32,347 bases of DNA from assembly GCA_030539275.1 (NCBI GenBank), contig JAUNSK010000010.1, forward strand, positions 1 to 32,347, read 5' to 3'. This DNA is from Oscillospiraceae bacterium. GTDB lineage: Bacteria; Bacillota; Clostridia; Oscillospirales; Ruminococcaceae. Of this stretch, positions 5,052-19,671 are shown piece by piece. The notes below the pieces were generated by a model. The model was not told the DNA's origin and ran no database searches. It saw nothing but the letters and a program-made list of their open reading frames with translations. The translations under genes and the position numbers were made by a program. The number at the start of each line of letters is the position of its first letter. Position 1 is the first letter of the stretch.

Positions 5052-5552
5052 GTGAAAAAAGTAACCCAGGCAATAAAAGCTCAGATGATACAGCTCAGAG
5101 AGTCGGGGTGCTCAATGAAAGAGATATCAGAAATAACCGGGCTGTGCATTAAGACAGTATCAAGGCAGACGAAGAGCTGCACTGTAAATCCAGTAAGAAA
5201 ACCTAAAGCCCCGGTTTTAACAGACAGAGACAAAAAGATGATGACACTCCGCGAACAAGGGCATTCATACGCTGAAATAGGTGAAGCGGTGGGAATGTCT
5301 AAAACGGCAGTAAGCGCTGCGTTTTACAGCAAGCTCAGAAAGCTGATGCCGAACAGTGGCAAGATAATCAGGGTGCGTAAGAAAGGCGGATGCTCGGAAG
5401 GATTTAAACCGCCGGATGATTGTTTTAATTGCACAAACGATGATTGCAATTACAATGGTCCGGTGCGAGCCGGTGAAAACAGACTCATGAAATTAGGACA
5501 CAAAGAAAGCCCACCAGAGTGCGAATCTGACAGGCTAGAAGATTATGATTAA
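5052..5552 (+). CDS. Double helix-turn-helix protein, sigma-region-4-like, with Cys cluster
   Basis: GTG start at 5052, with AAGGTG about 7 bases upstream. The 166-aa product has two HTH repeats: about 8-33 (LRESGCSMKEISEITGLCIKTV) and about 60-90 (LREQGHSYAEIGEAVGMSKTAV). The C-terminal region holds CFNCTNDDCNY, a possible zinc site. The architecture resembles sigma-70 region 4 or resolvase HTH domains. It is probably a phage regulator of early or middle genes; no enzyme motif is visible. Confidence 0.8.
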   Translation: MKKVTQAIKAQMIQLRESGCSMKEISEITGLCIKTVSRQTKSCTVNPVRKPKAPVLTDRDKKMMTLREQGHSYAEIGEAVGMSKTAVSAAFYSKLRKLMPNSGKIIRVRKKGGCSEGFKPPDDCFNCTNDDCNYNGPVRAGENRLMKLGHKESPPECESDRLEDYD

Positions 5553-11736: not shown

Positions 11737-13794
11737 ATGGAACAAAAATACGATCTAGAAAAACTTTTTTCAAACGTTGAAACATTAAAGGGAACTCTTT
11801 CAGATATTATTCTCCTAAAAGGTGCAAACAGGCAGGAACTTGATGATCTGAGGGATGCTTGCAGTGAACTTAAAGGAGCAGACGCAATTCTCAAAAAGGC
11901 TCTTAATGAGGTTAAACTTGAACTCAACAGCTATATCACTGAAAACAAACTGTCGGTAAGATTCACTTTCAAAGATAAAGCAGACTTTAATACTCCAGAG
12001 CCTTATGCAGAAGTATTCAGCTATGCAGGAGACAAGTTCAGACATCAGATGGAACTGAACAAAATGGCAGATGAAGCAAAGGCTGCAGGTTTCACAGGAT
12101 TCAAGAAAGCATATCAGGCATACATAAGCACAATGCGACTGACTAACAAAGCGAGCGAAGATAAAAGCAATCCAACTGATTTCCCGAATCAGCCTGTTGA
12201 GCTCGAAGCGGGGCAGTGGTTGTGTGACGTCGAGGGCGTGAAGTTAGTAGATGGACAGTGGGGAACTCAGGTTGCCTGCTGCCATCCGATTATGCCAGTA
12301 GAACGCTTAGTGAATATTGACACCGGAGAAGAGAAAATTAAGTTGGCATTTTGCAAGTCACGCAGATGGCGAGACATTGTTGTGAGCAAAGAAGTTACTG
12401 CAGTTGCTAGTAAAATAACCGCACTAGCTGCAAAAGGCGTGGCAGTAACATCAGAAAATGCAAAACTGCTTGTCAGGTATCTTTGTGATATAGAAAACCT
12501 TAACCTTGAAGAGATCCCGGAGCATGAATCAGTTTCTCGACTCGGCTATGTAGACGAAGGAAGATTCAGTCCTTATGTGGACGGGCTTATCTTCGACGGA
12601 GAAGCTTCGTACAAGCCTATTTTTAAGGCAATAAGTGAAAGCAAGGGTAATTTTGAGGACTGGTTAAAGGTAGCTAAAAAGTGCCGTTCCGAGAGCCTTG
12701 TGGCAAGATTGATTTTATCAGCTTCATTTTCGTCAGTTCTTGTCAAACACATCGGTGCTCTTCCATACTTTGTGCACCTTTGGTCCTGTGAATCCGGTAC
12801 AGGTAAAACAGTAGCTCTGATGTTAGCTGCCTCGGTTTGGGGCAACCCTGAGCCAGGTACATACATACAGTCATTCAACAGTACAACGGTCGGACACGAG
12901 AAGATGGCAGCGTTCCTGAATAATATTCCGCTCTGCATTGATGAGCTGCAGCTTAGCAAAGATAATCACGGCAGAAGTCGATTTGATGTATACCAGTTAG
13001 CTCAGGGTGTGGGCAGGACGCGAGGTAATAAAGCCGGCGGAGTGGATGCAACACCGACATGGGCAAACTGCATTTTGACAACTGGTGAGACTCCGATCGT
13101 AAGAGATGGAGCAGGAGCCGGAGCAATCAACAGAGTAATTGATCTGGAATGTCAGATCGGCGAAAAGGTTATCCTGGACGGTCAGGGAACAGCAAATACA
13201 GTCAAGGCAAACTATGGACAAGCAGGAAGAAAGTTCGTAGAAAGTCTTGATATTGAAAGAGCAAAGAAACTATATGACTTCTATTTTGAGAAACTCAGCG
13301 AGAGCGAGACTACAGAAAAGCAGTGCATGGCTGCAGCAATCATTCTTACAGCTGATGCACTCACAAGTGAAATGTTCTTTGACACAAAGCCGCTCGATGT
13401 CAGTCAGATGTCCAAGTTCTTAAAATCTAAAGCTGCAGTGTCAGCTGGAGAGCGAGGCTATCAGTGCATATGTGACTGGGTGGCAATGAATATCGGTAAC
13501 TTCCTTGATAAAAACGGATTCCCTCGTGATGAGAAAATGCCGGGAAAGATATACGGTCAGAAAGGTGAACAAGACTGGATATACATTAACCAGTCGGTAT
13601 TCAGAAATGCAGTTGAGGAAGCCGGATATAATGACAGAGCATTACTCAGCTACTTAAAGTCAAATGATCTGATTCAGACCAGAGGAAGAAACATGACGAA
13701 AGGAAAGCGCATTGAAGGAATTCTGACAGAATGTATTCTATTAAAGCTTCCTGATATGCGTTACGAAATAGCAGATGATATAGAAATTCTGTAA
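11737..13794 (+). CDS. DUF927 domain AAA-type ATPase, likely replicative helicase
   Basis: The 685-aa protein has a helical N-terminal region (1-150) and a DUF927 ATPase core. Walker A is CESGTGKT (351-358), Walker B is PLCIDELQ (398-405), a sensor-like ILTTGETP lies at 446-453, and a candidate arginine finger is Arg466 in AINRV. A C-terminal region of about 150 residues may bind DNA. DUF927 proteins are found in phage and plasmid replication modules. The candidate origin starts directly after its stop codon, which supports a replication role. Confidence 0.88.
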   Translation: MEQKYDLEKLFSNVETLKGTLSDIILLKGANRQELDDLRDACSELKGADAILKKALNEVKLELNSYITENKLSVRFTFKDKADFNTPEPYAEVFSYAGDKFRHQMELNKMADEAKAAGFTGFKKAYQAYISTMRLTNKASEDKSNPTDFPNQPVELEAGQWLCDVEGVKLVDGQWGTQVACCHPIMPVERLVNIDTGEEKIKLAFCKSRRWRDIVVSKEVTAVASKITALAAKGVAVTSENAKLLVRYLCDIENLNLEEIPEHESVSRLGYVDEGRFSPYVDGLIFDGEASYKPIFKAISESKGNFEDWLKVAKKCRSESLVARLILSASFSSVLVKHIGALPYFVHLWSCESGTGKTVALMLAASVWGNPEPGTYIQSFNSTTVGHEKMAAFLNNIPLCIDELQLSKDNHGRSRFDVYQLAQGVGRTRGNKAGGVDATPTWANCILTTGETPIVRDGAGAGAINRVIDLECQIGEKVILDGQGTANTVKANYGQAGRKFVESLDIERAKKLYDFYFEKLSESETTEKQCMAAAIILTADALTSEMFFDTKPLDVSQMSKFLKSKAAVSAGERGYQCICDWVAMNIGNFLDKNGFPRDEKMPGKIYGQKGEQDWIYINQSVFRNAVEEAGYNDRALLSYLKSNDLIQTRGRNMTKGKRIEGILTECILLKLPDMRYEIADDIEIL

Positions 13795-14076
13795 TGTGGG
13801 ACACAAATGTGGGACAATGTACATTGCAGAAACAACGTAGATGCGCACTTTGAGAGTTTTGTGGGACTGTGGGACATTTTCCCCACATACACACACACTT
13901 TATTATGTACTATTTTTTTAAGATGAAATAAAAAAGCCTCGCGCGTAAGGAAAATGTGCGTATTTGTCCCACAGTCCCACATTAACACTTTCAACAAGCT
14001 GAAACAACGTAAATACGACATTTCAAAGTGTGGGACTTTTTGTGGGACACGATTTTCAAAGTACCACAGTCCCACA
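13795..14076. repeat. TGTGGGAC iteron region, candidate replication origin
   Basis: This 298-bp gene-free stretch holds nine exact copies of TGTGGGAC. Six are forward (starting 13795, 13808, 13860, 13868, 14029, 14041) and three are inverted (13966, 13974, 14069). They are mostly paired at 8, 12 or 13 bp spacing. GAAACAACGTA occurs at 13829 and 14001, each about 30 bp before a forward pair. The middle (about 13898-13938) is AT-rich, as expected of an unwinding element. Flanking genes are two helicase-type ATPases. Origin function is inference; a multi-site operator is the alternative. Confidence 0.75.
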
Positions 14077-14092
14077 GACAAAGGAGTAAGAA

Positions 14093-15463
14093 ATGGAATT
14101 AAGAGATTATCAGCAGTCTTTAATTAATAAGTCCAAGGTTGAAATTATAAAAGGCAAACGTGCTATATGCTGTGTTCTCGGCTGTGGGGGTGGCAAAAGT
14201 ATAATCCAAGCGACGATAGCAGCAAATGCAAACAGAAAAGGCAACAGAGTTTTGTTCCTGGTACACAGAAAAGAACTCTGTGAACAGATAACAGATACTT
14301 TCAGCAAGTGTGATGTTGACTGGAATCTCACGAAGGTCGGCATGGTCCAGACGTTCACAAGGCATATTTCCGAGTTAGATCCACCGGATGTGATTATCAC
14401 GGATGAATGTCATCAATCAACAGCAAAGTCTTATACAAAGATCTATGATGCATTCCCGGGAGCATTGAAGCTTGGATTCACAGCTACACCATGCAGATTG
14501 AATCGAGGCGGATTGGACAGTGTATATGATGCTCTGGTGCAAGGTGTGAGTACACGATGGTTAATAGATCGTGGATATCTTGCAGACTATAAGCACTATT
14601 CCATACAGCTTGCAGATACATCAGGACTTCACAGCAAAGCCGGGGAGTTTGTTTCTTCTGAGGTCCAAGAACTCATGGAGGGCAAACACATTTACGGTGA
14701 AACGGTTCAGAACTGGTTGAGAATAGCTAAGGGAAAGAAAACTATTGTGTACTGCAGTTCAGTAACATCGAGCAAGGAAACAGCGGAACATTTTATTGAC
14801 GAAGGAATATCTGCAGCGCATCTGGACGGAAATACAAAATCAGAAGTCAGAGCAGACATCATGCAGCAGTTCAGAGCAGGCAATATCCAGGTACTTTGTA
14901 ACTGTGAACTGTTCTCAGTAGGTTTAGACGTTCCTGATTGCGAATGTGTGATACTTCTCAGGCCTACACAGAGCCTGACTCTTTACATTCAGCAAGCAAT
15001 GCGCTGCATGAGAGCAGACAAGAACAATCCCAGTAAAATTGGAATCATCATAGACCATGTGGGAAACATCTACAGGCATGGTTTTGTAGACGATAACCGA
15101 AACTGGACACTCGATGTCAAGAAACGTAAAGCTGAGAACCTTATAAAAATTAAAGAATGTCCTCAGTGCTTCACGGTTTATTCTGCTGAAAAGGTAGCGT
15201 GCCCAAGCTGCGGATATGAATGTCATATCATTAAGCAAACAAAAGATAAGAAAACAGTTGAAATAGACCTGCAGGAAGTGAAAAGGCAGGAAGATATCAA
15301 GAACGCAGATTACAAGGAATATCAGAACTGCAAAACATTTTCTGAACTGGTTGAGTTTCAGAAACTCAGAAAATATAAGTTCGGATGGGTACTAAGAAAA
15401 GCCCAGGAGCTTAACATCGACATACCGAAAAAATATTACAATCAATTGAGGTACATATCATGA
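14093..15463 (+). CDS. SF2 DEAD/DEAH-box helicase with C-terminal zinc ribbon
   Basis: The 456-aa product has superfamily 2 motifs: Walker A GCGGGKS (30-36), DECH box (104-107), motif III TATP (120-123) and motif VI QAMRCMRADK (about 301-310). Beyond the helicase lies a zinc-ribbon pattern, C356-x2-C359 and C370-x2-C373, then a helical tail. It probably remodels DNA during phage replication. AAAGGAG precedes the start, and the iteron region lies immediately upstream. Confidence 0.93.
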   Translation: MELRDYQQSLINKSKVEIIKGKRAICCVLGCGGGKSIIQATIAANANRKGNRVLFLVHRKELCEQITDTFSKCDVDWNLTKVGMVQTFTRHISELDPPDVIITDECHQSTAKSYTKIYDAFPGALKLGFTATPCRLNRGGLDSVYDALVQGVSTRWLIDRGYLADYKHYSIQLADTSGLHSKAGEFVSSEVQELMEGKHIYGETVQNWLRIAKGKKTIVYCSSVTSSKETAEHFIDEGISAAHLDGNTKSEVRADIMQQFRAGNIQVLCNCELFSVGLDVPDCECVILLRPTQSLTLYIQQAMRCMRADKNNPSKIGIIIDHVGNIYRHGFVDDNRNWTLDVKKRKAENLIKIKECPQCFTVYSAEKVACPSCGYECHIIKQTKDKKTVEIDLQEVKRQEDIKNADYKEYQNCKTFSELVEFQKLRKYKFGWVLRKAQELNIDIPKKYYNQLRYIS

Positions 15464-19511: not shown

Positions 19512-19583
19512 GTTGTCGTAGCTCAGTGGTAGAGCAATCTCCTTATAAGAGATAGGTCGTGGGTTCGAATCCCGCCGACAGCA
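19512..19583 (+). tRNA. tRNA-Ile(UAU), reads AUA
   Basis: Complete cloverleaf: acceptor GTTGTCG/CGACAGC (one G-T pair), D stem GCTC/GAGC, anticodon stem ATCTC/GAGAT, loop CTTATAA with anticodon TAT (19545-19547), T arm GTGGG-TTCGAAT-CCCGC, and A73. CCA is not encoded. The loop is that of a tRNA-Ile(GAU) with G34 changed to U. Most bacteria read AUA with a lysidine-modified CAU anticodon, so a UAU version is uncommon. The phage uses ATA codons often (e.g. two in ETIYIP at about 31300). Confidence 0.93.
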
Positions 19584-19590
19584 TTCATGT

Positions 19591-19668
19591 GTTACTGTAG
19601 TTCAACAGGGAGAACAGCCGCCCTAAAAGGTTAGGAGGCAGGTGTGGGTTCAACTCCTGTCAGTGACA
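19591..19668 (+). tRNA. tRNA-like element with an aberrant anticodon arm
   Basis: Acceptor GTTACTG/CAGTGAC, D stem GTTC/GAAC and T arm GTGGG-TTCAACT-CCTGT are tRNA-like. But 27 nt, not about 22, lie between position 26 and the T stem. The anticodon arm can only form an irregular long hairpin (GCC paired with GGC outside, CTAA with TTAG inside, with mismatch or bulge). No 7-nt loop with U33 can be drawn, so no anticodon is assigned. It may be a decayed tRNA, one with an insertion, or a structural mimic. AGGAGG at 19633-19638 in the arm doubles as a ribosome site for GTG 19644. Confidence 0.6.
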
Positions 19669-19671
19669 ACT

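Follow-up and report, generated by a model that had tools for sequence, protein, structure and literature searches.

The DNA analysed here, hereafter the window, comprises 32,347 bases (bases 1-32347 of a 115,883-base contig from an Oscillospiraceae bacterium) and carries the left part of a tailed prophage. Within it, a 298-bp gap (13795-14092) between the gene for a DUF927 ATPase and that for an SF2 helicase is filled with copies of an 8-bp repeat, or iteron. To judge from sequence comparisons, this gap is very probably the replication origin of the prophage, with the DUF927 protein encoded directly upstream as its initiator. An array at this position recurs with a common layout beside related DUF927 genes, its letters covary with residues of the C-terminal domain of the DUF927 protein, and array and domain differ block-wise between close relatives. 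The features are as follows, with positions in the window.

11737..13794, forward: DUF927 helicase gene, 685 amino acids; DUF927 ATPase at residues 177-436, HTH_56 (Cch helix-turn-helix) at 570-673
13681..13731, forward: proposed iteron-reading wing, codons 649-665 (RGRNMTKGKRIEGILTE); 652, 656, 663 and 665 covary with iteron bases
13795..13815, forward: left outer iterons (13795-13802 and 13808-13815), 13 bp start to start
13829..13839, forward: left spacer element GAAACAACGTA; weak match, 1.9 bits, to the spacer element of relatives
13860..13875, forward: left inner tandem iteron pair, 8 bp start to start
13876..13965, no strand: core, 90 bp, 68% AT, proposed unwinding region
13886..13896, forward: left core element CATACACACAC; ACACAC-type words are enriched in the cores of the fitted loci
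13938..13950, forward: right core element CTCGCGCGTAAGG, about 23 bases from the right end of the core (CGCGTA)
13966..13981, reverse: right inner tandem iteron pair, inverted, 8 bp start to start
14001..14011, forward: right spacer element GAAACAACGTA, oriented as the left copy; weak match, 0.6 bits
14029..14048, forward: right outer iterons (14029-14036 and 14041-14048)
14061..14076, reverse: right outer inverted pair, a near-iteron with one mismatch (14061-14068) and an iteron (14069-14076)
14093..15463, forward: SF2 helicase gene (Pfam ResIII and Helicase_C), accessory, present in only some relatives

The iteron TGTGGGAC occurs nine times without mismatch, on the forward strand at 13795, 13808, 13860, 13868, 14029 and 14041 and on the reverse strand at 13966, 13974 and 14069, exactly as an earlier reading of the letters alone (the sequence-only reading) had placed it. 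These are the only exact copies in the 32,347 bases searched. Dinucleotide-preserving shuffles contain 0.52 copies on average and 5 at most, with 0 of 100 reaching nine, and two same-strand copies within 30 bp are found at four places in the 3.68-Mb genome, all in this array. The stop codon of the DUF927 gene ends at 13794 and the repeats begin at the very next base, while the SF2 gene starts 16 bases past the last iteron; the coordinates given earlier for this gap agree. Also borne out was a second motif about 30 bp ahead of two forward pairs: GAAACAACGTA has two copies in the window, at 13829 and 14001, both on the forward strand, each preceding a forward iteron pair by 28-31 bp start to start. 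The sequence-only reading had overlooked the tenth, one-mismatch copy at 14061-14068, which stands in tandem with that at 14069, and a 17-bp perfect inverted repeat (13860-13876 and 13965-13981) that flanks the core. Its AT-rich core is indeed richer than the window, but modestly so (68% against 58% AT).

Scans yielded 186 loci besides the window, with an alignable DUF927 open reading frame in 180 of the 187 and enough downstream DNA in 175; after near-identical downstream regions were dropped, 157 non-redundant loci were left. An array was scored when a single 7-mer had five or more copies within the 430 bp that span and follow the stop codon, with other windows of the same loci as controls. 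By this measure 129 of the 157 loci carry an array, compared with 36 of 5196 control windows; in 122 the count is higher than in any control window from the locus itself, and in 128 it is higher than in each of 100 Markov resamples. The sequence-only reading had suggested a phage origin next to the gene for its own initiator or loader, and had named beforehand a lack of such arrays beside related DUF927 genes as the result that would overturn it; the arrays are kept, with letters that vary between phages, and the proposal gains support. In four loci (L076, L088, L098 and L160), one 7-mer occurs 10-16 times in control windows away from the DUF927 stop codon, and these may be other repeat arrays.

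The layout is shared more widely than the letters. With motifs found de novo in each locus, a template of a same-strand pair, a core of 60-150 bp and an opposite-strand pair fits 123 of the 157 loci. Of 246 inner pairs, 237 have a spacing of 8 or 9 bp, and across the core a distance of 93 bp start to start is the most frequent. The window fits this template, with spacers (52 and 56 bp) that exceed those of most relatives; two named clostridial phages (L006 and L007) lie outside it. Fitted cores average 0.70 AT against 0.59 in spacers, a figure that is biased because the fitting score rewarded AT. Two further regularities are not claimed. Distances from outer to inner iterons cluster near 31, 42, 52 and 95 bp on the left and 32, 43, 53 and 95 bp on the right, and the mean vector at 10.5 bp (0.29 and 0.49) lies above jitter nulls, but helical phasing at 10.5 bp was dropped because periods of 12-13 bp score higher. 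Six is the commonest iteron count per half (left 50, right 63 of 180 fitted loci), but the counts span 2-14 with degenerate sites included, and six iterons per half, one for each subunit of a hexamer, is not put forward.

The upstream protein has the domains expected of an initiator of this kind. DUF927 is matched at E 2.3e-43 (PF06048, 149 bits, cut-off 22.6) and the C-terminal HTH_56 at E 7.7e-14 (PF18662, 52 bits, cut-off 26.2). Its relatives in the Protein Data Bank by sequence are 8tch_A (E 8.9e-22) and 5dgk_A (E 1.8e-15), from the SaPI and Cch helicases; the alignment to 5dgk covers residues 178-655 and places RGRNMTK opposite RGRQTTK of Cch. PHROGs labels the protein 'DNA primase/helicase'. 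We propose that it is an origin-binding, self-loading helicase, and by homology it may act as an oligomeric 3′-to-5′ helicase. The iterons are likely bound by the DUF927 protein itself, through its C-terminal domain, because this domain covaries with the iteron; residues 649-665 are the putative wing, so called from the sequence.

For the covariation, iterons were oriented by the template and aligned blind to the proteins in the frame T1 G2 [3-6] A7 C8, which gave a training set of 77 loci with the window among them. Base 6 shares 0.85 bits of excess mutual information with residue 652 (next column 0.24), base 5 shares 0.66 with residue 665 (next column 0.46), base 3 shares 0.41 with residue 656 and 0.37 with residue 663, and base 9 shares 0.64 with residue 651. 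N652 occurs with G6 in 32 of 32 loci and A652 with A6 in 14 of 14, while R652 occurs with C6 in 4 of 5, H652 with C6 in 2 of 2, and G652 is mixed (11 G, 3 A, 1 C). The other positions behave similarly, E665 standing with G5 (56/56), N665 with T5 (4/4), H665 with C5 (4/4), G656 with T3 (42/42) and R663 with C (8/9). The window residues N652, G656, L663 and E665 agree with the rule for TGTGGGAC, the window being itself a member of the training set. Across all 180 fitted loci, 64 of the 65 with E665 have G5, and 51 of the 63 with R665 have T5.

Shared ancestry was controlled with a quick tree of residues 80-565 and with independent pairs taken from its supported branches. On this tree, which covers the 77 loci, base 6 has changed 24 times or more. 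For G at base 6 and N at 652, 16 pairs gave a mean of 10.3 the same way, 0 opposite and 5.7 with no difference (p ~0.002). The remaining associations point the same way, with 6.2 for and 0 against among 12 independent pairs for A652 and base 6 (p 0.03), 5.0 for and 0.1 against among 8 for R/H652 and base 6, 5.8 for and 0 against among 8 for C/S656 and C at base 3 (p 0.03), 5.0 for and 0 against among 8 for R663, and 3.7 for and 0 against among 5 for E665, a number too small for a test. When all relatives of 60% or more were excluded, residue 652 still predicted base 6 in 73 of 84 covered in-frame loci (nearest relative 48, majority 52), residue 665 predicted base 5 in 79 of 89 (70 and 69) and residue 656 predicted base 3 in 75 of 84 (63 and 70). 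Over all 180 fitted loci, the counts were 116 of 175 for 652 and base 6 (nearest relative 88) and 156 of 179 for 665 and base 5 (nearest relative 140). A rule fixed beforehand was also scored on 76 new non-redundant loci, of which 57 were fitted and 13 were in frame; base 5 was right in 8 and wrong in 0 with 5 lacking a rule, base 3 was right in 2 and wrong in 0 with 11 lacking a rule, and base 6 was right in 1 and wrong in 0, with 11 lacking a rule and 1 undetermined.

Wing and array could change together because the wing-coding DNA adjoins the array, and some close relatives differ in both as one block. Loci L066 and L075 have an identity of 1.00 (rounded) outside HTH_56, their wings differ at 652 (N/A), 656 (G/C) and 663 (L/Q), and their iterons are TGTGGGAC and TGCGGAAC. 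With positions counted from the stop codon, DNA identity between the two is 97-100% over -1900 to -200 and 95-100% over +300 to +600, but 78-91% in the stretch between. Such a block-wise difference with both flanks alike was found in three of the five pairs compared (L066/L075, L060/L101 and L053/L111), while a matching right flank is lacking in L158/L162 and no block is seen in L169/L179. Among 224 close pairs, which are non-independent and in which undetermined bases were counted as different, 104 differ in both base 6 and residue 652, 73 differ in neither and 47 (21 + 26) differ in only one of them.

The covariation also bears on who reads the iterons. The window encodes helix-turn-helix proteins, for example at 1857-2495 and 5052-5552, and inverted and direct operator-like sites lie directly 5′ of a gene, so that the gap might instead be an operator array through which such a phage regulator controls the SF2 helicase and downstream genes. 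We consider this very unlikely, since the iteron letters follow the DUF927 C-terminal domain beyond relatedness, and promoter-like matches across 13600-14250 are at chance (2 vs 1.6), with 0 in the gap. Arrays also remain where no SF2 homologue was found: among 152 loci with at least 2.5 kb of downstream DNA, a homologue lies downstream in 90, upstream in 1 and was not found in 61.

The same count speaks against the SF2 helicase as a partner, which is the less likely one because its homologue was not found in those 61 loci. It is very unlikely that the gap is an origin bound by the SF2 helicase or another factor, the HTH_56 correlation reflecting only shared descent or linkage. The SF2 gene does adjoin the array in the window, and so does the DNA coding for HTH_56, making joint inheritance possible, but linkage alone would not pick columns 652, 656 and 665 from about 540, and over the 180 fitted loci these are the top columns for bases 6, 3 and 5. 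Moreover, base 6 is predicted from 47 outside columns of similar entropy with a mean of 0.55 and a maximum of 0.68, against 0.87 from 652. An RNA structure or terminator between the DUF927 and SF2 genes is extremely unlikely, for although the fold has a z of -4.5 (0 of 100 shuffles as low) and a terminator-like stem lies at 13940-13960, the pairing stems from the 17-bp inverted iteron pairs, Rfam gives only a sub-threshold miRNA-family match on the inverted repeat (29.5 bits, cut-off 83), and structural RNA leaves the base-by-base covariation with a protein domain unexplained.

Returning to an origin read by the DUF927 protein, several results weigh against it or narrow it. Fewer than five copies of one 7-mer were found in 28 of the 157 loci, and 35 fail to exceed their own control windows. 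The misses include nine more distant HTH_56 loci from whole genomes (L015, L018-L023, L026 and L027), whose HTH_56 proteins possibly represent other uses of the domain, and two named phages (L006 and L008) in which repeats are visible by eye but only four copies are exact. A GC-skew check, which the sequence-only reading had recommended, was uninformative, with no reversal of the skew at the array, and a Pfam scan of 29 distinct window proteins, a subset of the window's open reading frames, matched no primase family at E <= 0.001. As for the residues, base 6 differs with 652 unchanged in 21 of the 224 close pairs, and in the hold-out base 6 could be scored just once and base 3 twice. In the 77-locus set, 6 of 7 loci with R/H652 have C6, but among the 180 loci this is true of only 7 of the 40 with R652; over all 180 loci, 656 predicts base 3 in 121 of 161, no gain over the majority (124). 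From the exclusion of relatives and the 180-locus tables, the correspondence is therefore well supported for bases 5 and 6, that for base 3 holds only within the TGTNNNAC class, and the R/H652 rule is local.

In the mechanism that we infer, the HTH_56 domain, mainly through residues 651-665, would read the 8-bp iteron. Two inverted half-sites, each made of an outer group, a spacer and an inner 8-bp tandem pair, flank the core, and the ATPase would bind and assemble as a hexamer on each side. The core would then melt, with the helicase loaded without a DnaC-type loader, and replication would start in the array. A concerted change of wing-coding DNA and array would switch the specificity of the origin, plausibly as an escape from cross-talk with co-resident relatives or satellites. 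On balance, we favor the broader view that such DUF927-dependent origins are widespread in clostridial tailed phages, that residues 652, 665 and 656 select bases 6, 5 and 3, that wing and array form one exchangeable block behind repeated switches of specificity, and that spacer and core words give the dyad-symmetric origin its polarity.

The evidence for such words comes from the fitted loci. An oriented spacer word like C..AAAaCCGCATRA exceeds 5 bits in 156 of 360 spacers, compared with 81 on the other strand and 16 when shuffled, an excess that is overstated because the motif was trained on the forward strand of the same spacers, from a seed of our choosing. It is present in at least one spacer at 109 of 180 loci and in both at 47. 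The earlier suggestion of a composite unit thus holds in that many relatives have a second spacer element, but the window's own GAAACAACGTA is a poor example, being the best spot in its spacers yet reaching only the 1.9 and 0.6 bits given above. A 9-mer common to both spacers of one locus was found in 60 of 180 loci against 141 of 3000 random pairs, some of these being iteron fragments. Within the cores, ACACACAC occurs in 22 of 180 (0.7 expected) and CGCGCGTA in 22 (0.2 expected). CGCGTA occurs in 35, typically at 20-24 bases from the inner pair on the right (median 23), its reverse complement occurs in 14, and TATAG-type words occur in 110, leaving 51 cores with neither. The window's core word CTCGCGCGTAAGG, also missed by the sequence-only reading, is found at the matching place in distant relatives; that core words mark an unwinding or priming site is a guess. 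Across iteron classes, an oriented core word CTCGCGCGTA or of TATAG type lies at almost the same distance from the inner pair on the right. The core word at 13938-13950 overlaps the terminator-like stem.

Origins of the lambda type and of plasmids combine iterons with an AT-rich region, and the lambda-type iterons lie inside the initiator gene. The window differs in that its proposed initiator is a DUF927 ATPase/helicase, and all exact iterons lie 3′ of its stop codon. Closer parallels come from staphylococci. SaPI origins are reported to lie directly downstream of rep, with Rep recognising iterons by its C-terminal domain, and just after the cch2 gene are AAGTG repeats that Cch2 requires and binds, likewise via its C-terminal domain (PMC7581432); another source describes SaPIbov1 Rep as a DUF927 helicase (PMC10061031). 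The window thus shares with SaPI a DUF927 helicase and iterons directly 3′ of its gene, with C-terminal recognition reported for SaPI (PMC7581432). It differs in being a tailed prophage and not a satellite, with a terminase large subunit, phage minor tail protein, phage integrase, S24 repressor and antirepressor in place of the gene content of a SaPI- or SCC-type element. The two-half-site layout, the core words and the residue-base correspondence are described here for the window family. The resemblance to SCCmec Cch lies in HTH_56, which is named after it, and in the alignment to 5dgk. The Cch2 origin comprises a 23-bp repeat region with three short iterons, unlike the ten 8-mers in two halves of the window, and the scan of 29 window proteins showed no CCPol-MP, the primase-polymerase of the SCCmec operon.

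Clostridial phages with MCM-like helicase genes (Roseburia phage Jekyll, Faecalibacterium phage FP_Epona, Anaerostipes AC844P2, R. gnavus phiRg507T2 and THSA-485A) are also alike, with a homologous DUF927 protein followed by a gap with short repeats, but their iterons differ (GGTAACC-, GTAACA- and AGGTGAAAC-like). No origin or repeat is among the listed record features for those stretches of the five phages. In two loci (L009 and L010) the DUF927 protein is longer and, unlike that of the window, is itself annotated in the records with a CHC2-type zinc finger (THSA-485A) or as 'DnaG primase - MCM-like helicase' (FP_Epona). By analogy, the window system would work like the SaPI and Cch2 origins, in a helicase family common to them, but in a tailed phage. 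The literature searched, in which coverage of key origin papers is incomplete, yielded no earlier account of the layout across the family, of the residue-base correspondence or of the exchange of blocks. As far as that literature goes, this would be a known kind of origin, and the residue-base correspondence and the exchangeable specificity block are the new part.

In clostridial phages of the gut, replication origins have so far been mapped poorly, and how a DUF927-type helicase selects its site was a question that work on staphylococci did not settle. If the proposal is true, origin sites could be located beside each such DUF927 gene and initiator specificity could be read from a few residues, while natural phage pairs that are identical outside one domain would allow a direct test of binding. 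It would also present a case in which about ten binding sites change in concert together with their reader.

The setting of the array within the prophage was taken from the Pfam scan. The window carries genes for an integrase, an S24 repressor, an antirepressor, a YqaJ exonuclease, RecT and SSB, besides DUF927, the SF2 helicase, VRR-NUC, a terminase and a tail protein. No family match to DnaA, DnaB, DnaC or DnaD was found at E <= 0.001 among the 29 distinct proteins scanned. Between the early and late regions, two tRNA genes occupy 19512-19670, one for Ile (anticodon TAT) and one for Phe with the unusual anticodon AAA.
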